Notes under the pieces: generated by a model
What the model was told of the DNA's origin: nothing
Seen by the model: the letters and a program-made list of their open reading frames with translations, nothing else
Databases searched by the model: none
Part shown: positions 11,794 to 41,714 of the stretch, one piece after another
Numbering within the stretch: the first letter of the stretch is position 1
Layout of the letters: each line of letters opens with the position of its first letter
Made by a program: the position numbers and the translations under genes
From: Mogibacterium sp.
Lineage (GTDB): Bacteria; Bacillota; Clostridia; Peptostreptococcales; Anaerovoracaceae
Direction of reading: 5' to 3'
Assembly: GCA_017512365.1 (NCBI GenBank)
Contig: JAFWGQ010000031.1
Span: 62,001-126,000, forward strand
DNA: 64,000 nt

Positions 11794-12693
11794 ATGAAAA
11801 TTGCAGTGACCGGTGCCGGCGGCTTTATCGGAACAGAGGTCCTGGCCTCCCTGAGCGGCGTGCGGGACGTTGAGACGATCGCGCTGTCAAGAAGAGCGGA
11901 CGGGGTCGACAATGATCTGCCTCGCTGCGAGCTGAGGACGACGGACTGGTCTTATGAAAGCCTTGCGGAGTCTCTGCGGGGTGCAGACTGCGTCATCCAT
12001 CTGGCCGGGACCAGGGGAACAGCCCCTGACCCGGAGCTTTACAGTATCAACGAGCGCATGACGCGTACCCTCCTCGATGCAATGAAGGCTGCGGGAACGG
12101 GGCGCATCGTCTTTGCCTCCTCCGTGTCGGTCTATGATGACGAAAGTCTTATCCCGTGGACGGAGGATTCGCCTCTGCACGGAAGGACTGCCTACGGGGA
12201 TTCCAAGATCAGGTGCGAGGAGCTGATACGCGGTTGCTCGGGGAGATACGGTTACTCATACGCCATCGCCCGCATCGCCCAGGTGCTGGGGTCCGGAGAA
12301 AGAAGACCCGGCATGATGAATGCCTTCATTGATGCCGCCATGGAAAAAGGCACGCTGCATGTGATGGGAGAAAGCAGGGCAAAAAGACAGTACATCTATG
12401 TCAGAGACCTCGCGAACATTCTGGTGTATCTGTCCACGGGCAGGAACAAGGTAAAAAATGACAGCAGCATCACGGTCAATGCCGGCATGCGCAGGGCATA
12501 TACCAATATCGAGATCGCGAGGATGGTCAACAGCGCTTTCGGCAATGACACGCCGATCGACTATGACGACTCCTACCCTGAAACGATAAGAGGTTTTCAT
12601 ATGGACATCTCCAGACTGAGAGATGTTCTTGATTACGAGCCTGTGGACATGGAAGAGGCTCTCAGAGATCTGCGAAAAGGAATCAAAGCATGA
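11794..12693 (+). CDS. NAD-dependent epimerase/dehydratase (extended SDR family)
   Basis: A 299-residue extended short-chain dehydrogenase: NAD-binding GAGGFIGTEV at residues 7-16, SSVSVYD near residue 110, and the catalytic YxxxK in TAYGDSK near 131-137. It probably epimerises, dehydrates or reduces a nucleotide sugar for the surface polymer. The substrate is unknown; resemblance to UDP-glucose 4-epimerase is only at family level. Its last four bases overlap the MBOAT start (ATGA). Confidence 0.85.
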   Translation: MKIAVTGAGGFIGTEVLASLSGVRDVETIALSRRADGVDNDLPRCELRTTDWSYESLAESLRGADCVIHLAGTRGTAPDPELYSINERMTRTLLDAMKAAGTGRIVFASSVSVYDDESLIPWTEDSPLHGRTAYGDSKIRCEELIRGCSGRYGYSYAIARIAQVLGSGERRPGMMNAFIDAAMEKGTLHVMGESRAKRQYIYVRDLANILVYLSTGRNKVKNDSSITVNAGMRRAYTNIEIARMVNSAFGNDTPIDYDDSYPETIRGFHMDISRLRDVLDYEPVDMEEALRDLRKGIKA

Positions 12694-14312
12694 CTTTTAC
12701 TTCTCTAATATTCGCTATTTTTGCCGCAGTCACGATCCTGCTGTATTTCGCGCTTCCTCTCGGACGGAACCGCTGGGTCGTTCTGCTGGCCGCGAGCTAT
12801 TTTTTTTATGTGTACAACAGCTATAAATACACGGCGTTCATACTGCTGACAACGGCCACGATCTACGCGGCCGCAGTCAGGATGGAATCGATCTCCGAAA
12901 AGACAAAGGCGCTGATAAAGGAAAAGAAAGCCGAACTGTCCAGGGAGGAAAGGAAGGCGCTGAAGAAGCAGGCTGAAAGCAGAAGGAAGACTCTGCTCGC
13001 GCTTACCCTGCTGCTGAACTTCGGCATACTCTTCATGCTCAAGTACCTGAATTTCCTCGCGGGCGGCCTCATGAGCCTGCTCGGAGGAGCTGACCGGTCA
13101 GGCGGCACCGAGATCATACATCTTCTGCTGCCGCTCGGGATATCCTTCTATACATTCCAGGCTACCGGCTATCTGATAGACGTTTACAGGGAAACTGTCC
13201 GCGCCGAGAGAAATCCGGCGAAATTCGCGCTCTTCGTATCGTTCTTCCCGCAGATAGTTCAGGGACCGATAAGCACGTTCGAACATCTCGGAGAGCAGCT
13301 GTTCGCTGACAGGAAGCCTGAGTGGATAAGGTTCAAGACAGGCGGCGAGCTGATACTCTGGGGCATGTTCAAAAAGCTCATAATAGCCGACAGGGCTGTG
13401 AATGCCGTCACGACGGTTTCCGGAGACTACTGGTCATATTCCGGAGAGATGATACTGTTCGCGGCTCTTCTCTACGCCTTCCAGCTGTATGCTGATTTTT
13501 CCGGAGGCATAGATATCGCAAGGGGAGTTGCGAGGATACTGGGCATAGACCTTGAAGTGAACTTCCGCCAGTCGTACTTTTCCAGATCAATAAGCGAGTA
13601 CTGGAGACGCTGGCACATCACACTGGGCGCGTGGATGAAAAAGTACGTATTCTACTCGCTTGCCGTTTCCAAAGGATTCATGAACATGAGCAAGGCGATC
13701 GGAAGCGGGAAATACAAGGATTCGCCTGTGGTGAAGCATATAGCGAAGACCCTGCCTACGGCGCTCGCTTCGTTCATAGTGTTCCTGCTGATCGGCATAT
13801 GGCACGGAGCCAACAGCAGATACATAGGCTTCGGTCTGTGGAACGGCGCCGTGATCGCGTTTTCCGCCCTGATGATGCCGGTATACGAGCGTGCTCTGAA
13901 GGCTCTCAGGATCCGTGCTGAGTCATGGATCTGGCAGGGCTTCCAGATGCTGAGAACATTCGTCATCATCCTGGTCGGATACTATTTCGACATCGCGCCG
14001 GATCTCAGAGGAGCGATCGACATGATGAAGCGTTCGGTCTTCGACCTGCACGGCGTACCTGCGCTCAGCCAGCTGAGAGAGCTCGGGCTCTACCGTTCGG
14101 ATCTGCTCGTTCTTGCGTACGGATTCGTCATCATGCTGTTCTTCAGCATCAGGCTGGAGAAGACCGGGATCGAGACCCCGGGAGATCTTCTCTGCCGCCG
14201 CCCTGCGTGGATACAGTGGATCGCGATCTTCATCGGAATAATGTCGCTGCTTCTTTTCGGAATGTACGGATCAGGATATGACGCGGCAGACTTTATCTAC
14301 ATGGGTTTCTGA
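12690..14312 (+). CDS. MBOAT family O-acyltransferase (DltB/AlgI-like), first copy
   Basis: The 540-residue polytopic protein has about 11-12 membrane segments and the MBOAT hallmark: YWRRWHITLGAWMK near residue 305-318 and the catalytic histidine in GIWHGANSRYIGFGLWNG near residue 371. DltB/AlgI proteins transfer acyl groups from a cytoplasmic donor to an extracellular polymer. It overlaps the SDR gene by 4 bases and is followed by a DltD/AlgJ-like partner. It is paralogous to the protein at 35897-37549. No carrier protein gene lies in this cluster, so the acyl donor is an open question. Confidence 0.92.
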   Translation: MTFTSLIFAIFAAVTILLYFALPLGRNRWVVLLAASYFFYVYNSYKYTAFILLTTATIYAAAVRMESISEKTKALIKEKKAELSREERKALKKQAESRRKTLLALTLLLNFGILFMLKYLNFLAGGLMSLLGGADRSGGTEIIHLLLPLGISFYTFQATGYLIDVYRETVRAERNPAKFALFVSFFPQIVQGPISTFEHLGEQLFADRKPEWIRFKTGGELILWGMFKKLIIADRAVNAVTTVSGDYWSYSGEMILFAALLYAFQLYADFSGGIDIARGVARILGIDLEVNFRQSYFSRSISEYWRRWHITLGAWMKKYVFYSLAVSKGFMNMSKAIGSGKYKDSPVVKHIAKTLPTALASFIVFLLIGIWHGANSRYIGFGLWNGAVIAFSALMMPVYERALKALRIRAESWIWQGFQMLRTFVIILVGYYFDIAPDLRGAIDMMKRSVFDLHGVPALSQLRELGLYRSDLLVLAYGFVIMLFFSIRLEKTGIETPGDLLCRRPAWIQWIAIFIGIMSLLLFGMYGSGYDAADFIYMGF

Positions 14313-14325
14313 GGGGGACGAAGCA

Positions 14326-15471
14326 ATGAGTACTGTTTTTAAGAGAACCTTTGGAATAATAAGCCTCATCATCGCGGTACTGGGCTCGGTGCTGGTCCTT
14401 GAAGAGTTCGTGACGAAGCGCTACGATCTGGAGGCCCTCCTCCTCAAGGGCTTTTACGAAGAGAAAAAGGACACCATCGACGTGGTCGTCATGGGCGCCA
14501 GCGAGATAACTCTCGGATACTCAGCCCCTGAGGTATACCGGAACTTCGGATTCACCAGCTATCCGTATGCCTTTACCATCAATCCCGTACCGCTCTGGAA
14601 GTATGAGATGCGAGACATCGAAAGGACCCAGCATCCGAAGGTGCTGGTCGTCGAAATAAACGGGGCCATTTACCTGGAGGACAAGTACATACACAGGAAG
14701 GGCTCCTTCACCAGGCTTGTCGAGAACATGCCGCTTTCGATGAACAAGATCGAGATGATAAATGAAATGTCGGATGATCCTGTTGAGAGCTACTTTCCTA
14801 TCTGCAAATACCACGACAGCTGGAGCGAGTTCCCGCAGGAGGATGTTCCGGACATACTCATGCTCAGGAAAAAGGGGCACGCGGTGCTGAGGGGCGCTCA
14901 GAGCAATCTGTACAGACAGAAGATAGATCACTACCCGTACTATCCTTCAGAGGATGAAATGATGGATCTGAATCCGGACGCCGAGGCGGCGCTGCGCGAT
15001 TTTATAAAGGAATGCAAGGACTCGTCCATCGAGCATGTGCTCTTCATATGCTATCCGCATATCATGGCTAAGGAAGAGTACTACGAGCGCCAGATGCGCT
15101 GCAACCGCGCTGGGGAGATCATCCGCGAAGAGGGGATGGACTATGTGGACTTCGACCGCATGCTGGATGAGATAGGACTGGATGAGTCGGATTTCTTCGA
15201 CGATCATCACATGAACGCGCCGGGACAGAGGAAGTTCTCCAACTATCTCGGCAAATATCTGCAGGAGAAGTATGATCTGCAGCCTACCGAACTGTCGGAA
15301 AAGGACAGGGAGGAATGGGCTGAGAGCGTGGACTACATAGACCGCTTCTACAGATACTATGACGAGTATACAAAAGCGCACGCGGACGACCCGTACACCA
15401 AGCCCGACATCAAGCTGAGGGACAGGGTCAGGGCGATAAAAGTACTTGATGAAATGAAAGATGCAGGCTGA
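14326..15471 (+). CDS. DltD/AlgJ-like SGNH-fold membrane-anchored protein, first copy
   Basis: The start ATG at 14326 is chosen because GAGGGGGA lies just upstream and the hydrophobic anchor (about residues 8-27) begins there; an in-frame ATG at 14278 lies inside the MBOAT gene and lacks a signal. The 381-residue product has SGNH block I VVMGASE with candidate nucleophile Ser59 and a block V-like FFDDHHMNAPGQ near residue 290. DltD-type proteins work outside the membrane with the MBOAT partner in acyl transfer to the polymer. It is paralogous to 34668-35843, sharing the C-terminal pattern LGKYLQ then ELS then EW. Confidence 0.82.
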   Translation: MSTVFKRTFGIISLIIAVLGSVLVLEEFVTKRYDLEALLLKGFYEEKKDTIDVVVMGASEITLGYSAPEVYRNFGFTSYPYAFTINPVPLWKYEMRDIERTQHPKVLVVEINGAIYLEDKYIHRKGSFTRLVENMPLSMNKIEMINEMSDDPVESYFPICKYHDSWSEFPQEDVPDILMLRKKGHAVLRGAQSNLYRQKIDHYPYYPSEDEMMDLNPDAEAALRDFIKECKDSSIEHVLFICYPHIMAKEEYYERQMRCNRAGEIIREEGMDYVDFDRMLDEIGLDESDFFDDHHMNAPGQRKFSNYLGKYLQEKYDLQPTELSEKDREEWAESVDYIDRFYRYYDEYTKAHADDPYTKPDIKLRDRVRAIKVLDEMKDAG

Positions 15472-16555: not shown

Positions 16556-16595
16556 CGGTGCAGACAGGACTCACAGATACAGAGAGGAAAGCGTT

Positions 16596-21040: not shown

Positions 21041-21044
21041 ATCC

Positions 21045-29184: not shown

Positions 29185-30786
29185 ATGGCAGTAAAACCAC
29201 TTATAGCGGTCATCGATCTCAAAGTATCTGAAGAACCCGGCTTCGTCACAGCCGGGGGCCGTTGTGTTATAAAACTTGTCGGCAGCAGAGAAAAAGTCGA
29301 TACCGATAAATTCCGCATCGATTTCCCGCTGAGGGAGAACGCCGCTGAGATAAGCTTCGGCTCGAGGTACGGAACTCCGCTTCCGGGAGGGATATGCCTC
29401 AACAGCTTCAGGCTCAGGATCAGCATGGATGACGCAAAGGAATTCGACATCCAGAACAAGGTGATCCCGGTATACGGAAACAGCGACGGCGGCAGATTCC
29501 TCTACGACCTGCGCGACCTCAAACGGGGGCGCAACAGGCACAGCAGGATAATAATCAGGGACGGGATGTCGATGTACTTCAGACAGACCGTCTACAATAC
29601 GCTCACCTTCACTGTCAGGGAATCCAACATCTACGACACGGAGGAGGGCGACAGGAGGCTCGAGGAAGCCCGCAAAAGAGCGAAGGCCCTGAAGGGCAGG
29701 GACATCATACTGATGTATGAGAAGAACTGCTCGAGATATGAGGAGAGCGCTTCGCATCTGTACGAAAAGCTCATGGACGCGGGATATGACAACGTCTATT
29801 TTATCGTGGACACGGGCATACCGGCGGTTCAGGACCTGGATGAGAAGTACAGGAGGAACCTGATCGAAAAGGACAGCGACAGGCATCTCGAATACTTCTT
29901 TGCCTGCGACAAGTTCATCTCGTCAGAGACCATAGATCACGCTCTCCAGCTCAGGATAGCGAACACGCATGTGCGCAACAAGCTGACCGGCAGGGGACTG
30001 AGCTATGTCTTCCTCCAGCACGGGGTCATGTACATGGTGTCGCTCAACTCGAAGCTGAGGACGGGATTCAAGAAGAACGACAACTATAAACTGTACAGGA
30101 CGGTGGTATCGTCCGAGGCGGAGGCCCGGCATTTCATCGACATGGCGGGAATGCTGCCCGAGGACCTCTACATAACGGGCCTGGCGAGCTTCGACACCTC
30201 CTACAGGCACGATGACGCAGATAAGATAATTATCATGCCGACATGGAGGCGCTGGGAGACCAATCAGGCGAGAGACGATGTCGAGCAGACAGGATACTTC
30301 AGGATGCTCGGACGCATGTACGACGCCGTGCCGGATCATCTGAAGGACAAGGTGGTGATACTGCCGCATCCTCTCATAGCCGAAAAGTTCAGAGGGGAGC
30401 ACGCCTTCGGGGATCACTTCATGATGGCGGACAGCTACGATAAGGTGTTCAGGGACTGCGCTCTTCTGATCACGGACTACTCGTCGATAGCCTATGACGC
30501 CTTCTACAGAGGCGCCAATGTGGTCTTCGACTGGATGGACCTCGACGAGTGCATGGAGCATTACGGAGAGGACACGCATCTCATGCTCAACGACGAAAAC
30601 GTATTCGGCAGGGCGTGCAGGAGCGAAGACGAGCTGAAGAAGGCCGTGAAGGAAAGTTACGGAAAGCCTCAGAGAGAAGAGGATATCGAAAGGTACAGAC
30701 ATATAGTCGAGTTCCATGACGGAAAGAACTCGGAACGCATAATGAAGAAGCTCATTGAAGACGGCATCATAGAAAGCAAAGCCTGA
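29185..30786 (+). CDS. CDP-glycerol/ribitol glycerophosphotransferase with N-terminal beta domain
   Basis: The 533-residue protein has an extra N-terminal region of about 150 residues with beta-sandwich character, then a TagB/TagF-type domain: VFLQHGVMYMVSLNS near residue 275, IMPTWRRWETNQ near 350, VILPHPLI near 392 and LLITDYSSIAYDAFYRGANVV split around residue 430. It probably builds the alditol-phosphate chain. It starts 5 bases after the rffA stop and is followed 4 bases later by the initiating transferase gene, so it is part of the same operon. Confidence 0.88.
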   Translation: MAVKPLIAVIDLKVSEEPGFVTAGGRCVIKLVGSREKVDTDKFRIDFPLRENAAEISFGSRYGTPLPGGICLNSFRLRISMDDAKEFDIQNKVIPVYGNSDGGRFLYDLRDLKRGRNRHSRIIIRDGMSMYFRQTVYNTLTFTVRESNIYDTEEGDRRLEEARKRAKALKGRDIILMYEKNCSRYEESASHLYEKLMDAGYDNVYFIVDTGIPAVQDLDEKYRRNLIEKDSDRHLEYFFACDKFISSETIDHALQLRIANTHVRNKLTGRGLSYVFLQHGVMYMVSLNSKLRTGFKKNDNYKLYRTVVSSEAEARHFIDMAGMLPEDLYITGLASFDTSYRHDDADKIIIMPTWRRWETNQARDDVEQTGYFRMLGRMYDAVPDHLKDKVVILPHPLIAEKFRGEHAFGDHFMMADSYDKVFRDCALLITDYSSIAYDAFYRGANVVFDWMDLDECMEHYGEDTHLMLNDENVFGRACRSEDELKKAVKESYGKPQREEDIERYRHIVEFHDGKNSERIMKKLIEDGIIESKA

Positions 30787-30790: not shown

Positions 30791-32041
30791 ATGATAGAAA
30801 GCAATTATTATCTGAGCAGAATATGTGAAGCCCTGCTGATAAGCATTGCGGTCGCGGCTCTGGCCACGCCCCTGTCGATCAGGCTGGCGCACAGACTGGG
30901 AGTTATAGACAGGCCCAAGGACGGGAGACGCATGCACAGAAAGCCCATCCCGCGCTTTGGCGGCATGGCTATCTTCCTCGGGTCGATGGTGGCGATGACC
31001 ATACCTGCCGGCATGAACGGTCAGATCAAGACCGCCATGTTCGGAGGTCTGCTTATGTATGCTCTCGGCGTTGCCGATGATATACTCGACATCAGGCCGG
31101 TGGTCAAGTTCGCAGGGCAATTCGCGATAGCCACTGTCGTCTATGCTCTCGGCATAAGGATCACTTTCCTGAGTAATTTTTTCGGCAATGCGGTGATCAC
31201 GGATGAATACGCCAACGTCATACTTTCGGGAGGACTGGCTTATCTGATCACGGTGTTCTGGATAGTCGGCATCACCAATGCAGTGAACCTCATGGACGGG
31301 CTGGACGGCCTCGCAGCGGGCTCGGTGGCCATAATGTGCATGTCTCTGGCGTACATAGCCTACATACACGGCACAAGGCTCGGATCGATGCCTGTATGCA
31401 TAGCCCTCGTGGCCGTGGCCGGAGGATGCATCGGTTTCCTGCCGTATAATTTCTCTCCGGCAAAGACCTTCATGGGTGACGGCGGGGCGCTGTATCTCGG
31501 CTACATGATAGCGGTACTGTCGGTCATATCGCCTCTCAAACAGGCAACGGTGGTCGGAGCCCTCATACCTATGCTGACTCTTGCGGTCCCTATCTTCGAT
31601 ACGGTGTTCGCGATGCTGAGGAGGATCCTGAACCATGAATCCATAATGCACGCCGACAGAGGCCACCTGCATCATCATCTGATGGCAGCAGGCTTCGGGC
31701 AGAGGCGCTCGGTGCTGATAATGTACGGCATAGTCGGCATCATGGGCATAGTAGCCGTACTGATCAGCAGAGAGCTGTATAAGGATGCGTTTGCGCTCTT
31801 CCTTATTGCCCTGCTGTATCTGAGCATCATAATCGTGCCTAAGAGACCGAAAAAGAACCTGAGAACGATCATCACACAGGACGCGGTCGAGGCTCAGAAG
31901 GAAAACTTCGTGGACTACCTGAACTACGAGAGGGAGAGAAGAAAGCAGCTGAAGGAGACGGGGCACGCGGAGGATCCGTCGCTGTTCATAAACGCCGATC
32001 CCGAGGAAGGCGGATCGACGCACAGAAAAAAAGACAAATAG
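30791..32041 (+). CDS. tagO: Undecaprenyl-phosphate N-acetylhexosamine-1-phosphate transferase (TagO/WecA family)
   Basis: The 416-residue protein has about 11 membrane helices and the MraY/WecA family cytoplasmic motifs: DRPKDGRRMHRKPIPRFGG near residue 38-56, NLMDGLDGLAAG near 165, FMGDGGALYLGYM near 228, and the C-terminal loop DRGHLHHHLMAAG near 290. These enzymes start wall polymer synthesis by moving HexNAc-1-phosphate from a UDP donor to undecaprenyl phosphate. A hydrophilic C-terminal tail of about 70 residues is an addition. It sits directly between a polymerase-like transferase and an LCP gene. The sugar (GlcNAc or GalNAc) cannot be read from the sequence. Confidence 0.92.
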   Translation: MIESNYYLSRICEALLISIAVAALATPLSIRLAHRLGVIDRPKDGRRMHRKPIPRFGGMAIFLGSMVAMTIPAGMNGQIKTAMFGGLLMYALGVADDILDIRPVVKFAGQFAIATVVYALGIRITFLSNFFGNAVITDEYANVILSGGLAYLITVFWIVGITNAVNLMDGLDGLAAGSVAIMCMSLAYIAYIHGTRLGSMPVCIALVAVAGGCIGFLPYNFSPAKTFMGDGGALYLGYMIAVLSVISPLKQATVVGALIPMLTLAVPIFDTVFAMLRRILNHESIMHADRGHLHHHLMAAGFGQRRSVLIMYGIVGIMGIVAVLISRELYKDAFALFLIALLYLSIIIVPKRPKKNLRTIITQDAVEAQKENFVDYLNYERERRKQLKETGHAEDPSLFINADPEEGGSTHRKKDK

Positions 32042-33421
32042 ATGACTCTGAAGGAAGAAATAAAGGACATATACGATAACAGGCCGACTCCGGAAGAAAG
32101 AAAGAAGGAGAAGCTGGAGGCAGGGCAGAGCAGTGCGTATAAAAGAGGCAGACGCGGCCTGACCGCGGAGGATCCGCTCAGGCCTGCAGCAAGAAGAGCG
32201 TACATGATACTGACTCTGCTGCTCGCACTGGCCGCAGCCGCCTTTTTTGTGATGCTCATTGTAATAAACCCTCTGCCGGCCGACCTGACCATAGTTGTCT
32301 CGATCCTCATACTGGGCCTGCTGACGGCTTCGGCGCTTCTTTTCAGGAAGCGCAGAAAGTGGAAACGCATCGCAGGCTTTGTCCCTGCGCTGACGCTTGT
32401 GCTGATCGTGGCGCTCGGCATGAATTTCATGGTAAATACCTACGCGATGCTCAACAGGATAGTCGACAGCGGGGTATCCGCCACAGGACCTGCGGCGAAG
32501 ACCGTAGATGTGGTCAATGAGCCGTTCAACATATACATCACGGGTATAGATCAGTGGGCGTACGAAAAGGGCATGGACCTTGAGAGAAGCGACGTCAACA
32601 TGATCATAACGGTCAATCCGGTGACAAAGAAGGTGTTGATCACATCGATCCCGCGCGACACTTATGTCGAGCTGTATACCGCAAGGCAGATGGACAAGCT
32701 GACTCATACCGGGGTGTACGGAGTTGACGAGACTCTCAATACGGTCGAGAAGTGGCTCGGTGTGAAGCTGAACTACTACGTTAAGATGAACTTTACCGGA
32801 GCCAGGGACATAATCAATGCAATGGACGGCATCGAGGTCTATTCGCCTGTGGCGTTCGAAAGCAGCCTGGCGGGATATGAATACCAGAAAGGCTGGAACT
32901 TCATGTACGGGAAGAAAGCCCTGTATTTCGCGCGAGAGAGGCATGCATTTGAAGGCATGGATTCCGTCAGGGTCGAGAACCAGCAGAGAGTGGTCGAGGC
33001 CATCATCAAAAAAATGACATCCTCCAGAGTGCTGCTGACGAAATACGGCGACATCATGGATGCTGCCGGAGAGCAGATGTCCACAAATATCTCTACTGAT
33101 GAGATGACTGCGCTCGCGAAGATGCAGATCTCGGAGCTCGCCTCATGGGATGTCGAGATGCAGAAGATAGAGGGCAAATATGACCAGGACTACGTGGCTT
33201 CGCTGACGCAGTCCAGAAAATTCGACGTATACAGGCCGGATCCGGCATCCGTACGCAGCTGCGTGGACAACATCGATTCGGTGATGAACCCGTCCCTCAG
33301 TGAACTCAGTGAGGCGAGGAAGAATGCCAGTAAAAGCTTCTTCGTCAATGCGGTGAAGAGGCTCGCCGGCGGAGGCAGCGGAGAGGAAGAACCGGAAAAC
33401 GGCGGACAGGAAGGAGAATAA
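32042..33421 (+). CDS. LytR-CpsA-Psr (LCP) family polymer-to-wall attachment protein
   Basis: The 459-residue protein has a charged N-terminal tail, three hydrophobic segments (about 55-80, 82-102 and 112-132) and an LCP domain: NIYITGIDQWAYEKGMDLE near residue 160, RSDVNMIITVNP near 182 and the Arg-rich active-site segment SIPRDTYVEL near 203, then LNYYVKMNF. LCP enzymes move teichoic acids or capsule from the undecaprenyl carrier to peptidoglycan. The start follows the TagO stop immediately. The C-terminus carries about 40 extra residues ending in a Glu/Gly-rich tail. Confidence 0.93.
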   Translation: MTLKEEIKDIYDNRPTPEERKKEKLEAGQSSAYKRGRRGLTAEDPLRPAARRAYMILTLLLALAAAAFFVMLIVINPLPADLTIVVSILILGLLTASALLFRKRRKWKRIAGFVPALTLVLIVALGMNFMVNTYAMLNRIVDSGVSATGPAAKTVDVVNEPFNIYITGIDQWAYEKGMDLERSDVNMIITVNPVTKKVLITSIPRDTYVELYTARQMDKLTHTGVYGVDETLNTVEKWLGVKLNYYVKMNFTGARDIINAMDGIEVYSPVAFESSLAGYEYQKGWNFMYGKKALYFARERHAFEGMDSVRVENQQRVVEAIIKKMTSSRVLLTKYGDIMDAAGEQMSTNISTDEMTALAKMQISELASWDVEMQKIEGKYDQDYVASLTQSRKFDVYRPDPASVRSCVDNIDSVMNPSLSELSEARKNASKSFFVNAVKRLAGGGSGEEEPENGGQEGE

Positions 33422-34671
33422 TGGGAAGAGTCTCAGGATTCAAACGTCTGGTATTTGACGTAGCCAAGAAGAACAGACTGTTCCGCATAGCGGGAAGGCA
33501 TGCCAGGGATGCGGTATACAGGGCCAAGATGGTCATCGACGAGCCCTTTGCCGGCATCGATGACAGACTGGTCTATTTCCAGACCTTTTCGGGAAGGAGC
33601 TACAGCGATTCTCCCAAGGCGCTGTACGAGTACATGCTGAACGCTCCGGAGTACGCCGGCTACAGATTCGTGTGGAGCTTCAAGGAGCCCGAAAGATTCA
33701 GCGGGCTTCTGGAAAACGGGCGCACCGAGATCGTGAGGTTCAGATCGAAGGCCGACAACAGAGCTCTGAGAAGGGCGAAGTACTGGATCTCGAATTACAG
33801 GATGCTCGACTACCAGCATCCGCGAAAGGACCAGATATACGTGCAGTGCTGGCACGGGACTCCTCTGAAGCGGCTGGGATACGACATCGCTGAGAGCGAC
33901 AACGCCATGAATTCGCTTTCAGAGATAAAAGAGAAGTACAGGACGGACGCGAAAAAGTTCAGATGGCTGCTTTCACCGTCTCCGTTCGCGACAGAAAAAT
34001 TCACCACGGCATGGAACCTGCGTGAGACCGGACAGGAGTACAAGATCCTGGAAACGGGTTATCCGCGAAATGACAGACTCGCGAAGGCGGGCGCTGAAGA
34101 GAGTTCCGCGATGAAGGATAAGCTCGGCGTCGCCGGCAGGAAGGTCATACTCTATGCGCCGACATGGAGGGATAACCAGCACGTGAGCGGCGAGGGCTAT
34201 ACGTATAAAACGGAAGTGGACTTCGACAGGCTCCGGAGTGAGCTGGGCGGAGAATACGTCATTCTTTTCAGGGCGCATTACCTCGTGGCAAACAGCTTCG
34301 ATTTCGCGCGCTACGAGGGGTTTGTAGTGGATGTGAGCTCGTATCCGGACATAAACGACCTGTATATCGCTTCCGACATACTCGTCACGGACTATTCCAG
34401 CGTCTTCTTCGACTGGGCCATACTCGGGCGCCCGGTCATATTCTACATGTACGATCTTGAGGAGTACGCGAACGGCATGAGGGGATTCTACCTCTCGACT
34501 GACGACCTGCCGGGACCGGTCGTCAGGGATGAGGACGCCCTCATAAGGGAGATAAGGGCCGCGGACGGCCGGAAAGCCGATGAGGCATATAAAAACTTCG
34601 TAAGGACATACGATCCCTACGAAGACGGCGAGTCATCCAGGCGCGTGCTCGAGCGTATCCTGGAGCGCTAG
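33421..34671 (+). CDS. CDP-glycerol/ribitol glycerophosphotransferase family protein (TagF/TarL-like)
   Basis: The 416-residue protein has the complete family set: VQCWHGTPLKRLGYDI near residue 140, ILYAPTWRDNQHVSGEG near 243, LFRAHYLV near 281 and LVTDYSSVFFDWAILGRPV near 322. It probably polymerises alditol phosphate. Start overlaps the LCP stop by one base (TAATG). Its TAG stop is shared in a CTAG palindrome with the TAG stop of the convergent dlt-like operon. It is the last gene of the operon beginning at rmlB. Confidence 0.9.
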   Translation: MGRVSGFKRLVFDVAKKNRLFRIAGRHARDAVYRAKMVIDEPFAGIDDRLVYFQTFSGRSYSDSPKALYEYMLNAPEYAGYRFVWSFKEPERFSGLLENGRTEIVRFRSKADNRALRRAKYWISNYRMLDYQHPRKDQIYVQCWHGTPLKRLGYDIAESDNAMNSLSEIKEKYRTDAKKFRWLLSPSPFATEKFTTAWNLRETGQEYKILETGYPRNDRLAKAGAEESSAMKDKLGVAGRKVILYAPTWRDNQHVSGEGYTYKTEVDFDRLRSELGGEYVILFRAHYLVANSFDFARYEGFVVDVSSYPDINDLYIASDILVTDYSSVFFDWAILGRPVIFYMYDLEEYANGMRGFYLSTDDLPGPVVRDEDALIREIRAADGRKADEAYKNFVRTYDPYEDGESSRRVLERILER

Positions 34672-35843
34672 GGTTGCTCAACAAGAGGAGCCAGTTCTCT
34701 TATGCGGGCAGGCGAATCATAATATTCCTCTCTGGCATTATCTTCGATCTGCTTTTCCGTGACCTTATAGTATTCGTGTAGGTAAGCGACCGCAAGATCC
34801 CATTCCGCCCTGACGCTGTCGCTGAGTTCTGAACGGCCGATCCCTGCCTCATCCTGTATGTATTTTCCAAGATATTCCGTTACCTTTCGCTGACCACGGG
34901 TGTTTGTGTGTCCGTGGTTGTAGAAATCCTCCTGCTCTTTGAGACCGATGTCGTGAAAATGCTTCTGCATGTTGAAGGCGCGGCATCCGTTTTCCTCCGC
35001 GATCTCCAGTATGCGGTTTGCACGCATGTTGACCTCCATCTCGTCAGGATAACCGTCCACGAGGACCGAAGGGAACTTTACAAAGAGGACCTCGATATCC
35101 TCGGACTTGCAGTAGTCTATGAAGTCGAGGATGATCTTTTCAGTCTTCGCGTCAAGAGGAAGCGCTTCATCCGTAAAGCTCTCAGCCTCCACATCCGCCA
35201 GCCAGCGGATCCTGGTTTTTGTGAAATTGCCCTTGAGAGGCGAAGGTCCGGCAAACTCGAGCCTGAGCCTGTCAGGCAGGGAAGGGAGGCATGCCGGAAC
35301 GTTGTTGTGATACTTGATGAACGGGAAGAGGAAGCTTGCCGCGCTGGTCCCGTCAACGAGACTGCTGAGCTCCTCTGCCGTTTCGACTCTTTCTGCGGAC
35401 CACTCAGTGTGGCTCATGACGATCGACAGCTGGTTGCTCCTGGTATCGATCATATCGCGGTCATAGCCGCCCCCGAACACATCGACGACGACGAGCTTCG
35501 GCCTCTGGGTCTTCAGTGCGTCCTTTAAAGCCGGCGTCCACATGGTGCAGGTGGATCCGCCTATCGCATAAGGATAGGAGGTGTATCCGAATTTCTCGTA
35601 GGCATATGCGGACGAAAAGTCGGAATATGCCGCGCTCGAACCGATCAGAAGCACGTCGATGCTGTTTTCAGGTTCCTTATGGAAGTTGATGATCCTTATC
35701 TCATCGCAGGAAAACGGGATGCACATGAACTTCTGCATGAACCATGCCGAAAAGAGAAGAAAGGCGATCATCAGCACCACCGCGGCGATCCTCAGTCCGG
35801 ACTTCTTCGTGTTATTGATTTGTTCTTTAGCAGAGTCATTCAT
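34668..35843 (-). CDS. dltD: DltD-like SGNH-fold membrane-anchored protein, second copy
   Basis: The 391-residue protein has one N-terminal membrane helix (about residues 17-36), SGNH block I LLIGSSAAYSDFSS with candidate nucleophile Ser70, and a block V-like region FYNHGHTNTRGQ near residue 307. In the first copy the corresponding site reads FDDHHMNAPGQ, so the catalytic Asp may be replaced by Asn here. It is the last gene of the dlt-like operon; DltD helps hand the acyl group to the polymer outside the cell. No ribosome binding site is visible before the ATG, while TAATAT lies 6 bases upstream. Confidence 0.82.
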   Translation of the reverse strand: MNDSAKEQINNTKKSGLRIAAVVLMIAFLLFSAWFMQKFMCIPFSCDEIRIINFHKEPENSIDVLLIGSSAAYSDFSSAYAYEKFGYTSYPYAIGGSTCTMWTPALKDALKTQRPKLVVVDVFGGGYDRDMIDTRSNQLSIVMSHTEWSAERVETAEELSSLVDGTSAASFLFPFIKYHNNVPACLPSLPDRLRLEFAGPSPLKGNFTKTRIRWLADVEAESFTDEALPLDAKTEKIILDFIDYCKSEDIEVLFVKFPSVLVDGYPDEMEVNMRANRILEIAEENGCRAFNMQKHFHDIGLKEQEDFYNHGHTNTRGQRKVTEYLGKYIQDEAGIGRSELSDSVRAEWDLAVAYLHEYYKVTEKQIEDNAREEYYDSPARIRELAPLVEQP

Positions 35844-35896
35844 ATCGGTATATTACGTTTTGTATAAATATATTCTGAATATCCTGTCCTGCCGGG

Positions 35897-37549
35897 TCAG
35901 AACTGCTGGTAAATGAATTCCGCAGGGTCGGACATCGGCCCGTAGCAGCCTATGATCAGTATGCACATCAGAAGCAGGGCGAGAGCCGCCCACTGGACGA
36001 ATCCCCTGTGCCTGACTATGATCTCGGCAGGAGTATCCACCGACTCCTTTTCCATCCTGACGCTGAAATACAGCAGCACGAGAGTGCAGATAAACATGGC
36101 TGCATATTCCGCCTTCGTCAGCCCGAGAGTCGGAAGCTGCTCTCTGAAGACGGACAGCGACTGATCCGTCAGCGTGAGCCACAGCATCTGCAGGGCGTTC
36201 GTGAAGTTCTCGGCGATGTCGAACACATAGCCCACGAGAACTATGATGAATGTCCTCAGCATCTGGAAGAGATGCCACCATGCGGCATCCTCTTTTATGT
36301 GCAGGGCGTTTCTGGACTTTTCATATACAGGCCCGATAAGAGCCGAGATCATGATGATGATGCCGTTCCAGAGACCGAAGCCAATGTATCTGCTGTTGGC
36401 TCCGTGCCATATGCCGATAAGCATGAATACTATGAACGACGCCATGGCCGTCGTGAACACCTTCGCCGTGTGTCTGCCTGCGGCAGTCTGCCCGAAGCGC
36501 GATCTCGCTATGGAGGCGCTGACGCGCTTTGACCACTCGGACATCGCTATAGGGTAGAAGACGTAGTTCTTCATCCACGCTCCCAATGTGATGTGCCACC
36601 TGCGCCAGTACTCGCTGATGGTCCTGGAGAAGTAAGGCCTTCTGAAGTTGACTTCAAGCTCGATGCCCAGCACTTCGCATATGCCCCTCGAGATGTCGAT
36701 GCCGCCCGAGAAGTCCGCATACAGCTGCAGGGCGTAGAGAAGCACTACGAAGAGCACGGCCGTGCCCCCGTATCCGGCGAACTCCTCTCCGTCGAACATG
36801 CCTCCGTGTATGCCGCCGTTCTCGTTGTACGCCTTGATAGCGATCCAGACCCTGTCTGCGATGACCATCTTCTTGAATACTCCCCAGCTGATGTTCATCA
36901 CGCCCTTCTTGAAATTGTCCCATTCGAAGTCGTGAGCTTCGATCAGCTGATGCTGGAGCCTGCCGAACTGTGAGATCGGTCCCTGGATTATCTGAGGGAA
37001 GAAGGATACGAAGAGTGCGAATCTGAATATGTTCCTCTCAGGTTCGACCGTCTCCCTGTATACGTCGATCAGATAGCCCGTGGCTATGAAGGTATAGAAG
37101 GATATGCCGAGAGGCAGCAGCAGGTGTATCTGCGGCGCGCCGTCCGGGTCCGCTCCCATGAGCGACGCGATGCTGCCAGAGAGGAAGTTGAAATACTTGA
37201 GAAAGAAGAGTATGCCGAAGTTTAGAAGGAGCACTGCTGCGAGCACGCCCTTCTTTTTCTTCTGCGCGGCCTCCTTAAAAGCCTTTTTCTCTTCTTTCGA
37301 CCACTCGGCCTTATGCTCCCTGACGGCTGCTTTCGTCTCTTTCGAGATATCCGCCATCCTGTTTGCAGCCAGGTATATCGTGATTATCGTGACCAGGATG
37401 AAGGCAGTATACTGAAAGCTGTTGTAAACATAAAAAAAGCCGCTCGCGATCAGAAGCACCACCCAGCGGCAGTCCTTCTTCGGGAGAGCAAAGTAAATCA
37501 TGCCCGTTATGATCGCAAACAGAGCGAATGGAAGAGACGTCAGAGCCAT
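35897..37549 (-). CDS. dltB: MBOAT family O-acyltransferase (DltB-like), second copy
   Basis: The 550-residue polytopic protein carries the MBOAT motifs YWRRWHITLGAWMKNYVF near residue 318 and GIWHGANSRYIGFGLWNG near 383 with the catalytic His. In the Dlt pathway DltB takes the aminoacyl group from the carrier protein and, with DltD, moves it across the membrane. Its first 10 bases overlap the decarboxylase gene, so translation is coupled. It is paralogous to the protein at 12690-14312. Confidence 0.92.
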   Translation of the reverse strand: MALTSLPFALFAIITGMIYFALPKKDCRWVVLLIASGFFYVYNSFQYTAFILVTIITIYLAANRMADISKETKAAVREHKAEWSKEEKKAFKEAAQKKKKGVLAAVLLLNFGILFFLKYFNFLSGSIASLMGADPDGAPQIHLLLPLGISFYTFIATGYLIDVYRETVEPERNIFRFALFVSFFPQIIQGPISQFGRLQHQLIEAHDFEWDNFKKGVMNISWGVFKKMVIADRVWIAIKAYNENGGIHGGMFDGEEFAGYGGTAVLFVVLLYALQLYADFSGGIDISRGICEVLGIELEVNFRRPYFSRTISEYWRRWHITLGAWMKNYVFYPIAMSEWSKRVSASIARSRFGQTAAGRHTAKVFTTAMASFIVFMLIGIWHGANSRYIGFGLWNGIIIMISALIGPVYEKSRNALHIKEDAAWWHLFQMLRTFIIVLVGYVFDIAENFTNALQMLWLTLTDQSLSVFREQLPTLGLTKAEYAAMFICTLVLLYFSVRMEKESVDTPAEIIVRHRGFVQWAALALLLMCILIIGCYGPMSDPAEFIYQQF

Positions 37550-38733
37550 CCGGCAAGATCCTCCGCCATGTTGAAACGGGCCGTCTCGATACGGCTCCTC
37601 ATCAGTCTCAGATCATTGTTTTTGTCGAGCATGTAAACCGAAGGAAGATCCCTTGAAAGGAACATCGAAAAGCCTTCGTATACGGAGTACGCGCCCGTCC
37701 TGTGGAATACCACGCGGTCGCCTTCGCTGAGGCCCGTGAACGAGGCGCCCCTTGCGATGACATCGGCCGTTGTGCAGAGGCTGCCGCAGAGGGTCCACTT
37801 TTCCGCCTCTCCGTCCTTCGATCCGCCGGAGCCGATATGCGTTATGACAGGGATCTGCATGCCCTGTATCTGCCCGTCGTATTTCATCATATGCAGGCCG
37901 CCGTCGAGTATGGCGTAATGCGCCCCGTCGTTGAACTTGGTATCGACGACCGTATTGACAAGCCAGCCGCACGGCGCTGCGAAGAACCTGCCCATCTCGA
38001 CCGTGAGACGGACTCTCTCCGAGAATTCCCTGATGCAGCCGGATATCTCATCCAGCCGGGACTTTTCCTTATCGTCGGCGTCAGACGCGAAGTAGTCGAC
38101 CGCGAGACCGGTGCCGTATTCGACGCGTTCCGCCGTGAACCTGAGTTCTTCTTCGAGCTCGTCGAGGAACTGATTGAGGCGCGCGATCTCCTTTATGATC
38201 TCTTTCGGACGCGTCTTCTGCGTGCCCGTAAAGTAGTGTATGCCCTTTATCTCCGTTCCCGGAAATGACGCTCTGTCAGCGATGAGCCTTTTCACGTCGC
38301 TTCTGTCCATGCCGAACTGGCTCTCGCACGAAAGCCTGATCAGAACTTCGGCTGCGACGCCGCGCTCCGCGGCCGCGTTGCTTATGTATCTGAGGTGGTT
38401 CTCGCTCTCGGCTGTCAGTATCCTGACTCCGTAGTCCATGGCGGTGTCCACCTCGGCCTGCGACTTGTTGACTCCGCTGAATATGATCTTCGCGGGGTCG
38501 ATCCTGAGCGCTCTGCAGATCTCGAGCTCGCCCGGGCTGCAGACTTCGATCTTCGAAAATTCTTCAGGCAGAGCGGCAAGCAAAAACGGATTTGCCTTTA
38601 TCGAATAGCAAATATCAGTATCTTCTCCGAAGGCTTCCTTTACCATCCTCGCCCTTCCGGCGAATGCGTCTGCCGAGAAGATGTATGCTGGGGAAGCGAC
38701 TTCCCGGGCTGCCGTGATCAGAGCGCTGTGCAA
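37540..38733 (-). CDS. Fold-type III PLP-dependent amino acid decarboxylase in dlt-like operon (BtrK/DAP decarboxylase family)
   Basis: The 397-residue protein starts at TTG 38733, with GAGGAG 7 bases upstream inside the end of the carrier gene. All hallmarks of alanine-racemase-fold decarboxylases are present: PLP lysine Lys46 in CYSIKANPF, VEYGTGLAVDY near 205, EMGRF (Glu246, Arg249), LCTTADVI with Cys320 and Asp324, and TGAYSVYEGFSMF near 346. Family members decarboxylate diaminopimelate, ornithine or lysine, and BtrK acts on glutamyl attached to an acyl carrier protein in butirosin synthesis. Its place between the carrier and MBOAT genes suggests action on the carrier-bound aminoacyl group. 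Substrate unknown. Confidence 0.88.
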   Translation of the reverse strand: MHSALITAAREVASPAYIFSADAFAGRARMVKEAFGEDTDICYSIKANPFLLAALPEEFSKIEVCSPGELEICRALRIDPAKIIFSGVNKSQAEVDTAMDYGVRILTAESENHLRYISNAAAERGVAAEVLIRLSCESQFGMDRSDVKRLIADRASFPGTEIKGIHYFTGTQKTRPKEIIKEIARLNQFLDELEEELRFTAERVEYGTGLAVDYFASDADDKEKSRLDEISGCIREFSERVRLTVEMGRFFAAPCGWLVNTVVDTKFNDGAHYAILDGGLHMMKYDGQIQGMQIPVITHIGSGGSKDGEAEKWTLCGSLCTTADVIARGASFTGLSEGDRVVFHRTGAYSVYEGFSMFLSRDLPSVYMLDKNNDLRLMRSRIETARFNMAEDLAGWL

Positions 38734-38737
38734 TGTA

Positions 38738-38968
38738 TCACTCCTCGTCCTGAAGTTTTTCGATCAGCGCATACATGGCCTCTGCCGAGTCGAAGTTCTC
38801 CGGCACGAGGTTTGCAGGCCTGATCGTGATATCGAATTCGTCGTTCAGAGTGCTGACCAGCGAAATGATGTCGAACGAATCGAGTATGCCGCCCGTTACG
38901 AGCTGCTTCTCGTTTGCGAAATCCACATCCGGTCTCATCTCTTCGAGTATCTCCATTAACTGTTCCAT
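38738..38968 (-). CDS. dltC: DltC-like aminoacyl carrier protein
   Basis: The 76-residue protein is a phosphopantetheine-type carrier: the attachment serine is Ser31 in ILDSFDIISLV, followed by an acidic recognition helix. It would be loaded as a thioester by the ligase encoded upstream. AAAGGA precedes ATG. Length and motif match DltC, but the attached acyl group may not be D-alanine given the neighbours. Confidence 0.88.
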   Translation of the reverse strand: MEQLMEILEEMRPDVDFANEKQLVTGGILDSFDIISLVSTLNDEFDITIRPANLVPENFDSAEAMYALIEKLQDEE

Positions 38969-39009
38969 CGTATCGTATCCTTTCTGTTCAAAGATGCCTT
39001 TCAGGCATT

Positions 39010-40533
39010 TTACTTTTTCATCATTTCCCTGAGCTCGCTCATGGCTATCTTGCCGTTCGGCAGATGAGGCAGCTCTTCGAGTCCGACCAGTTTGCGCGGC
39101 ACCATGAAGGCCGGCATGTCGGCTCTGAAACTGAGCGTGATTTCCTTTGCAGCCGCCGGGCCGGCATAGAAGAGCCAGATAAGCTCACGCCCCTTGTCGT
39201 ACAGCGATGCGCACTCCGTGATGCCGTCTATGCTCAGGGCATATGCCTCGACCTCAGCGAGCTCGACACGGTGACCCATGTGCTTTATCTGCCTGTCCTT
39301 CCTGCCGTGGAAGTACAGCTCGCCGTCTTCTCCGATATGTCCGAGGTCTCCCGTGAGATATATCCGCTCAGGGTAATCTTCGTTCAGAGGGTTCTGCATG
39401 AAGACAGCCTCGGTTTGCTCCTTCGATCTGTAGTAGCCTGTAGCCAGGCACGGACCCTTGACGCAGATCTCGCCGATCTCGCCGGCCGGAGTCTTCGACC
39501 ACGCGCCGCTTTCCCCGTCGTGAGTCAGCAGCAGTATCTGGTAGTGTTTGTACGGCTTTCCGATCGGCAGGACCGTATCGTCAGTTACCGTCTCATCGAG
39601 CACATAGTATGTGCAGGACGCTGTCGCTTCCGTCGGACCGTACTGGTTTATGAATGTCACATCCGGAAGGTTCTCCTGCCAGATGCGAAGGTATTTGTTC
39701 GAAATGACCGAGCCGGAGAACACGACCGTTCTGAGGTGCTCCGGCCTGGCGTCGGCGAAGCCTCCCAGCCTGGCCGGAATCTCGAGGCCCGCGCAGCTCC
39801 AGCACAGGGCCGTGACGCCCTTTTCATTCAGCGTTCTGAAAAGCGCGTCAGGCATCGCGAATTCGTTCTTCGGTATGATGACCGTGCTTGCTCCCGTCAT
39901 GAGAGGCAGGTACATGTCCCTGATGGCCGCTATGTAGTCGAGAGGAGCCTGGTTGCCGAGCACATCGCTCTCGCCGAGATGCATAACTTCGTTCAGTCCC
40001 TCGAGATAGCAGATGAGCGAGCGGTGCGAGGTCAGCACGCCTTTAGGCTTTCCGGTCGAACCCGAGGTAAAGATCATGTACAGCGGCGAAGCCTCAGTGA
40101 CCGAAGCTTCTCTTTCCGCGACGATATCCTCATCCGCCGGAGCTTTGAGCAGGTCCTCCATAAGAGCGATCTCGCAGCTGCCCGCGATCTCCTTCGCTGT
40201 CTCCAGATGGTCCCTGTCGACGATCAGGATCTCCGGCTCTGCGACGCTCATGATCTGCTCGAGTCTCTGACGCGGAACATCCCCGTCCATCGGAGCATAA
40301 AAACAGCCCGCGCGCGCGACTCCCATGTAGCACGCAGGGGTATATGCGTTCCGGCCTGTCATCACGGCAACAGGGCGCTCGATCTCAGAGCGCTTTGCGA
40401 CCCATGCCGCGACCGCTGCCGAAAAACGGTCCAGTTCTTCAAATGTTACGGACCCTTCTTCTCCGGAATAGACGGCGCGGCCTCCGTATAATGCTGCCGA
40501 CCGCCTGATCCAGTCGAATACCTGTGATGCCAT
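39010..40533 (-). CDS. dltA: DltA-like aminoacyl:carrier protein ligase (adenylate-forming)
   Basis: The 507-residue protein is an adenylation domain: A3 motif MIFTSGSTGKPKG near residue 153-165, NQYGPTEAT near 296, YLTGDLG near 373 and the C-terminal lysine region HLPNGKIAM near 492. Asp199 in PLDY probably binds the substrate alpha-amino group, as in DltA. At the place where I recall D-alanine ligases reading FCGE, with a cysteine linked to D-alanine selectivity, this protein reads FSGS (Ser273). The substrate may therefore differ. It is the first gene of the five-gene - strand operon; GTAAAGGA precedes the ATG. Confidence 0.87.
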   Translation of the reverse strand: MASQVFDWIRRSAALYGGRAVYSGEEGSVTFEELDRFSAAVAAWVAKRSEIERPVAVMTGRNAYTPACYMGVARAGCFYAPMDGDVPRQRLEQIMSVAEPEILIVDRDHLETAKEIAGSCEIALMEDLLKAPADEDIVAEREASVTEASPLYMIFTSGSTGKPKGVLTSHRSLICYLEGLNEVMHLGESDVLGNQAPLDYIAAIRDMYLPLMTGASTVIIPKNEFAMPDALFRTLNEKGVTALCWSCAGLEIPARLGGFADARPEHLRTVVFSGSVISNKYLRIWQENLPDVTFINQYGPTEATASCTYYVLDETVTDDTVLPIGKPYKHYQILLLTHDGESGAWSKTPAGEIGEICVKGPCLATGYYRSKEQTEAVFMQNPLNEDYPERIYLTGDLGHIGEDGELYFHGRKDRQIKHMGHRVELAEVEAYALSIDGITECASLYDKGRELIWLFYAGPAAAKEITLSFRADMPAFMVPRKLVGLEELPHLPNGKIAMSELREMMKK

Positions 40534-40568
40534 AAATGATTTTCCTTTACAATTAATATGCTGTGTAG

Positions 40569-40597
40569 ATGGTACACCAACGGATGATTTTAATCAA
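40569..40597 (-). promoter_or_regulatory. Promoter of the dlt-like operon
   Basis: On the - strand TTGATT (plus coordinates 40592-40597), a 17-base spacer and TACCAT (40569-40574), followed about 35 bases later by the ATG at 40533. Only this promoter is evident for the five genes, whose gaps are short or negative. Confidence 0.6.
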
Positions 40598-40640
40598 GGC
40601 GCAGAAATTTCCTGATATTACTGAATTTTACTGAGTTTAG

Positions 40641-40649
40641 TGGTAGAAT
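40641..40649 (+). promoter_or_regulatory. Extended -10 promoter of the polysaccharide deacetylase gene
   Basis: TGGTAGAAT (TG at 40641-40642, TAGAAT at 40644-40649) lies about 80 bases before the ATG at 40731. No strong -35 is present. It faces away from the dlt-like operon promoter. Confidence 0.4.
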
Positions 40650-40730
40650 TTTCAGGACTGAAAAGGTATTCGGACCGAATACCGGCGACGCGTTGCAGCA
40701 GACCGCGGGAGGATGAAGGAGACCGAATAA

Positions 40731-41714
40731 ATGAGACAGATCACAGGAAGAGCTTTATCGATGATACTGGCGCTGACGCTCATGCTGTCGGCAGGTCTTG
40801 CAGTACCTGTAATGGCGGGAGATGACACGCAGAGCGGAAAGCAGCCTGATGCAGCCGAAATACTGCAGCCTGAGGGGTCAGGGCAGTCGCAGCAGTCTGA
40901 CGAAGAAAAAACGCAGCAGCCTGCCGAAATCAAGACGAAGACCGGAAAGACCAAGGCCCTCACGCCTGCGCAGAAGGAAGCTCAGGAGATAAAGGAATAC
41001 GGTAAATACAAAGGAAAGAATGCGAAAAAGATCCCCGTCATCACGTACCATAATGTCGTTACCGACAGGCAGAAGAGATCGGAACGGTATCGCTATGATT
41101 CGATCGTCATATCGAAGAGCGATTTCGAAAATCAGATGAGATGGCTCAAAAAGAACGGGTACAGGACGATCAGCTGCGAGGAGCTCTATCTGTGGCACAA
41201 GGGCAGGATAAAGCTCCCGAAGAAGAGCGTTCTCATCACGCTTGATGACGGCCGCTTCGGTGTTCCGAAGAATGCTTATCCGATACTGAAAAAATACGAT
41301 CTCAAAGCGACGTGCTTCGTGATCGGTTCATATACCATGAACAACAAGCCTGAATACATGAAGTACAGGGAGATGAAAAAGATACAGAATGATTATCCGA
41401 ATCTGGAATTCCAGAGCCACACGTGGAAGCTCCATTACAGGTTCAGCCTCGATAAGGGCGTGTATTCAAAAGTGCTGAAGGACGCTAAAAAACAGAAGGC
41501 GAAATACGGCTTCGAGTATCTGGCGTATCCGTACGGAAGAAACAATGACCAGATGATAAAGGCGTATAAGAAGGCCGGCATCAAAATGGCTTTTGCGTAT
41601 CGTCAGTACGGGGACGGCTACGCAACGAGAGATCAGAACATCTACAGGATAAAGAGGATCAAGGTGCAGGGCAACGGCTCGATGTACCAGTTCAGAAGCA
41701 TCTTCAGATACTGA
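40731..41714 (+). CDS. Secreted polysaccharide deacetylase (NodB/CE4 domain)
   Basis: The 327-residue protein has a signal peptide (LSMILALTLMLSAGLAVPVMA), a Gln/Glu-rich linker (about 30-95) and a CE4 domain: PVITYHNVV near residue 101, LITLDDG near 171 (metal and base Asp), the zinc pair in FQSHTWKLH near 230 and YPYGRNNDQMIKAYKKAG near 265. It likely removes acetyl groups from peptidoglycan or a surface polysaccharide. AAGGAGA precedes ATG. A terminator follows, so it is monocistronic. Confidence 0.88.
   Translation: MRQITGRALSMILALTLMLSAGLAVPVMAGDDTQSGKQPDAAEILQPEGSGQSQQSDEEKTQQPAEIKTKTGKTKALTPAQKEAQEIKEYGKYKGKNAKKIPVITYHNVVTDRQKRSERYRYDSIVISKSDFENQMRWLKKNGYRTISCEELYLWHKGRIKLPKKSVLITLDDGRFGVPKNAYPILKKYDLKATCFVIGSYTMNNKPEYMKYREMKKIQNDYPNLEFQSHTWKLHYRFSLDKGVYSKVLKDAKKQKAKYGFEYLAYPYGRNNDQMIKAYKKAGIKMAFAYRQYGDGYATRDQNIYRIKRIKVQGNGSMYQFRSIFRY

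Follow-up and report, generated by a model that had tools for sequence, protein, structure and literature searches.

A Dlt-like operon that pairs a BtrK-like decarboxylase with a fused acyl shuttle suggests that a trimmed amino acid may decorate the cell surface in Mogibacterium

Why would a Dlt-like operon include an amino acid decarboxylase? D-alanine is the textbook amino acid of teichoic acids, where it modulates charge and autolysis as well as cationic-peptide resistance. The question is raised by five genes on the minus strand (34668..40533) of a 64,000-nucleotide stretch of Mogibacterium sp. DNA (GenBank assembly GCA_017512365.1, contig JAFWGQ010000031.1, positions 62,001 to 126,000), referred to here as the window; completeness and contamination of the source genome are 92.9% and 6.94%. 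The combination of genes suggests Dlt-like aminoacyl export joined to a BtrK-like decarboxylase and a fused acyl shuttle, and thus that a different, trimmed amino acid may be attached to the cell surface. We give a probability of about 0.56 to the reading that these genes encode an envelope acylation system that depends on a carrier and includes an extra tailoring step.

The genes run from 40533 down to 34668 in the order ligase, carrier, decarboxylase, MBOAT, SGNH. They encode a stand-alone amino acid adenylating ligase of 507 aa (39010..40533; PF00501, 204 bits), a carrier protein of 76 aa with a phosphopantetheine site at Ser31 (38738..38968; PF00550, 20.8 bits, equal to the cut-off), a fold-III pyridoxal phosphate (PLP) decarboxylase of 397 aa (37540..38733; PF02784, 79 bits; PF00278, 45 bits), an MBOAT acyltransferase of 550 aa (35897..37549; PF03062, 41 bits) and a DltD/PatB-like SGNH transferase of 391 aa with an N-terminal helix (34668..35843), assigned from the fold of its AlphaFold model. 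Coordinates and strand agree with the original prediction, which had also read the five genes as one unit because the decarboxylase starts just past the carrier stop and ends within the MBOAT gene. The TTG start codon, preceded by GAGGAG, indeed lies 4 bases past that stop, and the overlap with the MBOAT gene is 10 bases; by their coordinates, ligase and carrier genes are 41 bases apart and MBOAT and SGNH genes 53. This linkage, together with the recurrence of the set across 27 loci, bears out the single unit, and the predicted Ser31 aligns with a serine in all 27 carriers.

Decarboxylase orthologs were found in 13 of 148 genomes in a sample of the family (E 1e-37 or better) and, at E 1e-35 or better, in 14 of 297 genomes of an order sample and 5 of 398 of a phylum sample, the source genome being counted each time. 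The remaining matches in the family sample, second pieces of decarboxylase genes aside, were only 22-37% identical, and one of the five phylum-sample genomes (G415) has its decarboxylase at a locus, L132, with no ligase nearby. Removal of duplicates left 27 distinct loci; neither these nor the residue counts include L053 and L054, which nearly match L040 or share its contig, or L123, which shares the contig of L056. These loci span four sample families (f1, f14, f15 and f51), with 3 of the 27 outside the source genome's own family. The carrier lies within the cluster at every locus, and the ligase shares a contig with the decarboxylase at 26; at the exception, L051, the contig starts inside the decarboxylase gene, and another piece of a decarboxylase gene and a ligase are found on a different contig of that genome. 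MBOAT and SGNH genes are contiguous with the trio of ligase, carrier and decarboxylase at 22 of the 27 loci, from three families, while at L049 the contig end cuts the locus and a 31-bit SGNH tail is still visible. Four gene orders were observed, namely ligase-carrier-decarboxylase-MBOAT-SGNH, ligase-decarboxylase-carrier-MBOAT-SGNH, MBOAT-SGNH-ligase-carrier-decarboxylase and MBOAT-SGNH-ligase-decarboxylase-carrier, so that carrier and decarboxylase genes are either adjacent or have only the ligase gene between them. Chance grouping of the five genes is very unlikely, because the set recurs at 27 distinct loci, three of them from other families, and the varied orders in four families support a functional linkage better than one inherited order would. 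A search for the conserved order dltA-dltC-decarboxylase-dltB-dltD, which had been put forward as a check, thus upheld the gene set; the order itself takes four forms, and four loci have no MBOAT nearby.

The decarboxylase had been assigned to the fold type of BtrK, and BtrK is its nearest solved structure by both sequence and fold. Two BtrK entries were its top PDB matches by sequence (phmmer, 4e-30), and BtrK structures were also the top Foldseek matches of its AlphaFold model (pLDDT 91.9; 7ru7 with E 3.3e-31 and 2j66 with 7.6e-31). Its score against the lysA equivalog model was 178.9 bits, below the cut-off of 297.9. In a midpoint-rooted tree, the decarboxylase rows (27 rows from 26 loci, with the duplicate L123 kept and the L051 fragment left out) formed a clade of their own with support 100/100, separate from the LysA rows. 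We then compared residues between 27 decarboxylases and 22 comparators taken from the same family, comprising 17 LysA-like matches of the family search, two of which were near-copies dropped from the tree, and 5 matches of the LysA model; L107 gave no usable comparator row. The catalytic residues claimed for the window enzyme are present (K46, H166, E246, R249, C320 and Y349), and the 27 decarboxylases keep Cys320, Glu246, Arg249 and Tyr349, with Lys46 in all but one fragment (26 of 27). The R-x-x-L-Y motif of LysA, which has a role in distal carboxylate binding, occurs in none of the 27 decarboxylases vs 20 of the 22 comparators. Similarly, all 27 decarboxylases have Thr or Ser directly after the catalytic Cys (Thr in BtrK), whereas 21/22 comparators have Glu there, and a DGG-x-[HN]...Y-x-GQ pattern is common to all 27. 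LysA above its curated cut-off accompanies the decarboxylase in 4 of the 13 genomes; in 8 of the 13, no match to the LysA model above 140 bits was found beyond the decarboxylase itself. At L132 (7915-9201, plus strand), in a genome of another family, the decarboxylase groups with BtrK, and a ligase and carrier of this kind are not nearby.

The ligase, in turn, differs from a typical D-alanine-activating DltA, as had been proposed. It scored 237 bits against the DltA model TIGR01734, below the cut-off of 559.85, and did better, with 317.1 bits, against a generic model of amino acid adenylation whose cut-off is 317.4; the carrier reached 32.3 bits against the DltC model NF003464 (cut-off 68). 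We aligned the substrate pockets of 26 distinct decarboxylase-linked ligases with those of 14 classical DltA proteins of the family (14 of the 30 DltA loci that were fetched), using position numbers (235, 239 and 301) that we mapped ourselves; the window ligase has D199, I201, R205, S273 and K495 in this alignment. In all 26 linked ligases Asp lies two residues before position 235, position 239 is Arg or Lys and position 301 is Ser; the corresponding residues in all 14 DltA proteins are Ser, Met and Cys. Two types can be distinguished: in type A, which comprises the window ligase and 12 more, position 235 is Ile, whereas type B (13 ligases) keeps Asp235. The type follows the decarboxylase tree at 26/26 loci, type A ligases pairing with one decarboxylase clade (98/97) and type B ligases with all others. 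Judged from these residues, the Arg/Lys at 239 suggests a second carboxylate in the substrate; the type A pocket would fit an enzyme that activates a carboxylate at a distance from the amine, as in gamma-Glu, and beta-Asp or diaminopimelate is a possible substrate for type B. Classical DltA was not found in the source genome, where the next-best DltA-like match after the ligase reached only 111 bits; one relative, G276, keeps a classical dltA as well.

For the last two genes, the predicted export pair of an MBOAT and a DltD-like protein is supported by the shuttle motif of the MBOAT and the SGNH fold of the adjacent protein. The MBOAT scored 143.5 bits against the DltB model TIGR04091, below the cut-off of 375, and ends in FIYQQF. 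This matches FXYXXF, which the part of PMC12148441 available to us gives as the acyl-shuttle motif of MBOAT-SGNH pairs with a fused tail. Among 26 MBOAT open reading frames (ORFs) in 22 decarboxylase loci, the tail is exactly FXYXXF in 20 and L/P-I-Y-A-G-F in 5, the last being the N-terminal piece of a broken gene; at L057 (4922-6396) the MBOAT gene is split into two frames. A scan for DltX-like ORFs (25-95 aa) gave none at 33001-41500 of the window, with a weak control in which only 3 of 30 classical loci, which have short flanks, yielded a DltX-like ORF upstream of dltA; it also gave chance-like candidates in 7 relatives with the decarboxylase. The SGNH protein had no match in Pfam and NCBIfam scans. 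Its AlphaFold model has the SGNH fold (mean pLDDT 94), and its best Foldseek match by E-value was Enterococcus faecium DltD, at 1.1e-5 and a TM-score of only 0.37. An SGNH-family gene adjoins the MBOAT gene at all 22 MBOAT-bearing loci, the weakest at 60 bits (L129). Judged from these genes, the system would be a hybrid of a Dlt-type carrier donor and a PatA-type fused shuttle.

A second such pair, not mentioned in the original prediction, lies on the plus strand of the window: an MBOAT of 540 aa that is 55% identical to that of the operon and ends in FIYMGF (12690..14312), and an SGNH-family protein of 397 aa that is 29% identical to its counterpart (14278..15471). No second ligase, carrier or decarboxylase was found in the window, and L052 and L056 likewise have two MBOAT/SGNH pairs and one trio each. 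The simplest reading is that one donor trio may serve both export pairs.

We propose the following route. The ligase would adenylate a dicarboxylic amino acid and load it onto the carrier via a carboxylate other than the one that is later removed. The decarboxylase would then take the free alpha-carboxylate off the carrier-bound amino acid to give an omega-aminoacyl carrier, as BtrK does with glutamyl-BtrI. The MBOAT would shift the acyl group onto the Tyr of its own FXYXXF tail, and from there it would pass to the serine of the SGNH protein and finally be esterified to a polymer outside the cell, for which the teichoic acid of the neighbouring genes is the likeliest candidate; the second MBOAT/SGNH pair may draw on the same donor. 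Decarboxylation on the carrier requires attachment via another carboxylate, which agrees with the extra cation in the ligase pocket. For the window type we tentatively favour gamma-Glu giving gamma-aminobutyrate (GABA), a choice on which we would not insist; beta-Asp to beta-alanine, diaminopimelate to lysine and aminoadipate to 5-aminovalerate are possible as well. The acceptor is probably teichoic acid. A broader generalization, which we consider conceivable though short of even odds, is a class of Firmicutes systems that decarboxylate an acidic amino acid on a carrier and esterify the omega-aminoacyl group (GABA, beta-alanyl, 5-aminovaleryl or lysyl being candidates) to teichoic acid by means of carrier-dependent, fused-shuttle MBOATs, one trio serving two pairs. 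The original prediction of loading, decarboxylation and esterification is partly borne out: the unit, the gene set, the BtrK-like decarboxylase, the non-DltA ligase, the shuttle pair and the teichoic acid neighbours stand, and the reactions themselves are offered as a proposal. Its contrast with D-alanine in terms of cationic charge and a missing free carboxylate does not stand, as D-alanyl esters are likewise cationic and have no free carboxylate. The real contrast would lie in where the amine sits (omega vs alpha), and from general ester chemistry the stability of an omega-aminoacyl ester probably differs from that of a D-alanyl ester.

Several observations weigh against this route. BtrK was only slightly ahead of LysA structures in Foldseek (1twi, 6.7e-30), and in our tree it fell outside the decarboxylase clade, on a long branch with the L132 protein (96/70) on the LysA side; the accessible portion of PMC7857480 describes a published tree in which BtrK grouped with decarboxylases of conjugated substrates and with diaminopimelate decarboxylase. 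His at position 166, present in 22/22 comparators, is Gln in 10/27 decarboxylases, although the window enzyme keeps it. Loss of Asp235 is not decisive, because McyG, which activates L-Phe, has Val there (PMC11253843, from the part available). Lys239 is also found in 5/5 related ligases with no decarboxylase nearby (L133, L136-L138 and L140), and the L134 and L135 ligases carry the type A Asp and Arg signature, again with no decarboxylase nearby. In the L135 genome (G038, 98% complete) the sole decarboxylase match in the family search is LysA-like, which indicates that loading need not always accompany decarboxylation. Four loci (L042, L044, L055 and L131) hold a trio with room on the contig and yet no MBOAT nearby, and in a scan of selected neighbours teichoic acid genes were near only four relatives (L048, L056, L059 and L125).

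The alternative that best survives this evidence is that the order is reversed, with the decarboxylase acting on a free amino acid, the ligase loading the omega-amino acid directly and the MBOAT and SGNH proteins exporting it to yield the same decoration. The window ligase has Ile201 in place of the Asp whose usual role is to bind an amino group adjacent to the carboxylate being activated, a change that would suit an omega-amino acid as well, and the same-signature ligases at L134 and L135 could be read in this way. We nevertheless consider it unlikely, since Arg/Lys239 suggests a second carboxylate (with the qualification given above), the decarboxylase is nearest to BtrK, whose substrate is carrier-bound, and falls outside the LysA rows, and carrier and decarboxylase genes are so closely placed. 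A second alternative is that the trio makes an aminoacyl building block for a capsule sugar, a small molecule or a protein, its link to the MBOAT and SGNH genes being secondary. The 4 of 27 trios without a nearby MBOAT would be explained in this manner, L055 and L044 among them lying beside glycosyltransferase and other genes; the contiguity of MBOAT and SGNH genes with the trio at 22 of 27 loci in three families makes it quite improbable. A third possibility, a D-alanylation operon of the usual kind into which a lysA gene has moved, is very improbable: the source genome, at its 92.9% completeness, shows no other fold-III decarboxylase and no classical DltA, as this explanation would have it, but the ligase falls far below the DltA cut-off with its pocket residues replaced, the decarboxylase lacks the R-x-x-L-Y motif of LysA, and relatives hold an above-cut-off lysA (4/13 genomes) or a classical dltA (G276) in addition.

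Related sets of genes were also seen without a decarboxylase nearby. L133, L136, L137 and L138 have Dlt-like sets of ligase, carrier and MBOAT, with an SGNH gene in three; their MBOAT tails are FIYQQY, FIYNRF, FIYQGF and FIYNQF, and their ligase codes are DAK or DGK, two of them with V-D. We take these codes to be closer to glutamate codes than to those of D-alanine, and further aminoacyl decorations beyond D-alanine may therefore exist. The L135 ligase lies near a carrier/MBOAT/SGNH set, and the L134 ligase beside methyltransferase and formyltransferase genes.

Returning to the proposed load-then-decarboxylate system, the genes around it bear on the acceptor. Convergent with its SGNH end is a TarF/TagF-like CDP-glycerol glycerophosphotransferase gene (33421..34671, plus strand; PF04464, 365 bits; TarF model NF041712, 320.5 bits vs a cut-off of 550). 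Beyond it, all on the plus strand, are genes for a LytR-CpsA-Psr (LCP) glycopolymer-peptidoglycan ligase (32042..33421; PF03816, 130 bits), a TagO/WecA-like undecaprenyl-phosphate sugar-1-phosphate transferase (30791..32041; PF00953, 131 bits) and a second CDP-glycerol glycerophosphotransferase-like protein (29185..30786; PF04464, 70.7 bits). These neighbours place the operon at the margin of a gene cluster for teichoic acid or a related glycopolymer, and the TarF/TagF-like neighbour likely belongs to the acceptor pathway. Two further TarF-like matches lie at 3-734 and 4004-5089 of the window, and its surface-polymer region also includes a YkuD L,D-transpeptidase (16488-17642, plus strand) and an ATP-grasp protein resembling L-amino acid ligases (20997-22256, plus strand). 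Among the relatives, sensor histidine kinase genes are found beside the operon at L043 (11172-12716, minus strand) and L045 (5321-6940, minus strand), which may hint at envelope-stress control. The trio at L055 is accompanied by ATP-grasp, glycosyltransferase, MATE and PIG-L genes, that at L044 by pyruvyltransferase and glycosyltransferase genes, and that at L042 by a carboxylesterase gene.

A literature search, made on titles and the openings of abstracts and covering few subscription papers, returned no account of a dlt-like operon with a decarboxylase or of GABA-substituted teichoic acid. If the proposed route is correct, it would replace or supplement D-alanylation with a cationic ester that is perhaps chemically more stable than that of D-alanine, and the Dlt chassis would emerge as a platform for exporting aminoacyl groups in general, its tailoring enzymes being interchangeable. 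The route would also tie the starter-unit chemistry of natural products to the cell envelope, and the wall chemistry of these gut bacteria could not be read from classical dlt genes alone.

The operon can be compared with several known systems. Like the Dlt system (DltA, DltB, DltC, DltD and DltX), it combines ligase, carrier, MBOAT and SGNH genes in one operon beside teichoic acid genes; unlike it, it adds a decarboxylase, has the DltA pocket residues replaced and carries the shuttle motif fused to the MBOAT C-terminus in place of a separate DltX, and its ligase, carrier and MBOAT fall well short of the Dlt model cut-offs. It differs from PatA/PatB and the other fused-FXYXXF MBOAT-SGNH pairs, as far as the available part of PMC12148441 describes them, in that its donor is a carrier protein with its own ligase. 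Two exosortase-A-associated models match distantly: TIGR03099, the second-ranked model for the decarboxylase (168 bits), and TIGR03098 for the ligase (163.8 bits), both far below their cut-offs (478.45 and 592.35). In the butirosin system BtrJ/BtrI/BtrK, to whose decarboxylase that of the window is nearest, BtrJ is an ATP-grasp enzyme, whereas loading in the window relies on an AMP-forming ligase; moreover, the butirosin product goes to an antibiotic, whereas that proposed here would go to an envelope acyltransferase. According to the portion of PMC7857480 at hand, BtrK makes GABA-S-BtrI from glutamyl-S-BtrI. The VinN/VinL/VinO and FlvN-type trios, which provide macrolactam starter units (PMC11284099, available in part), share with the window an adenylating ligase, a free-standing carrier and a PLP decarboxylase, theirs acting on a loaded aspartate-type amino acid. 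VinN-type beta-amino acid ligases have a beta13-beta14 loop that is one residue shorter (PMC11253843, same part as above), whereas the loop of the window ligase shows no gap against DltA or LgrA in an alignment made without VinN itself. The product of those trios goes into a polyketide, whereas that proposed here would decorate the cell envelope.

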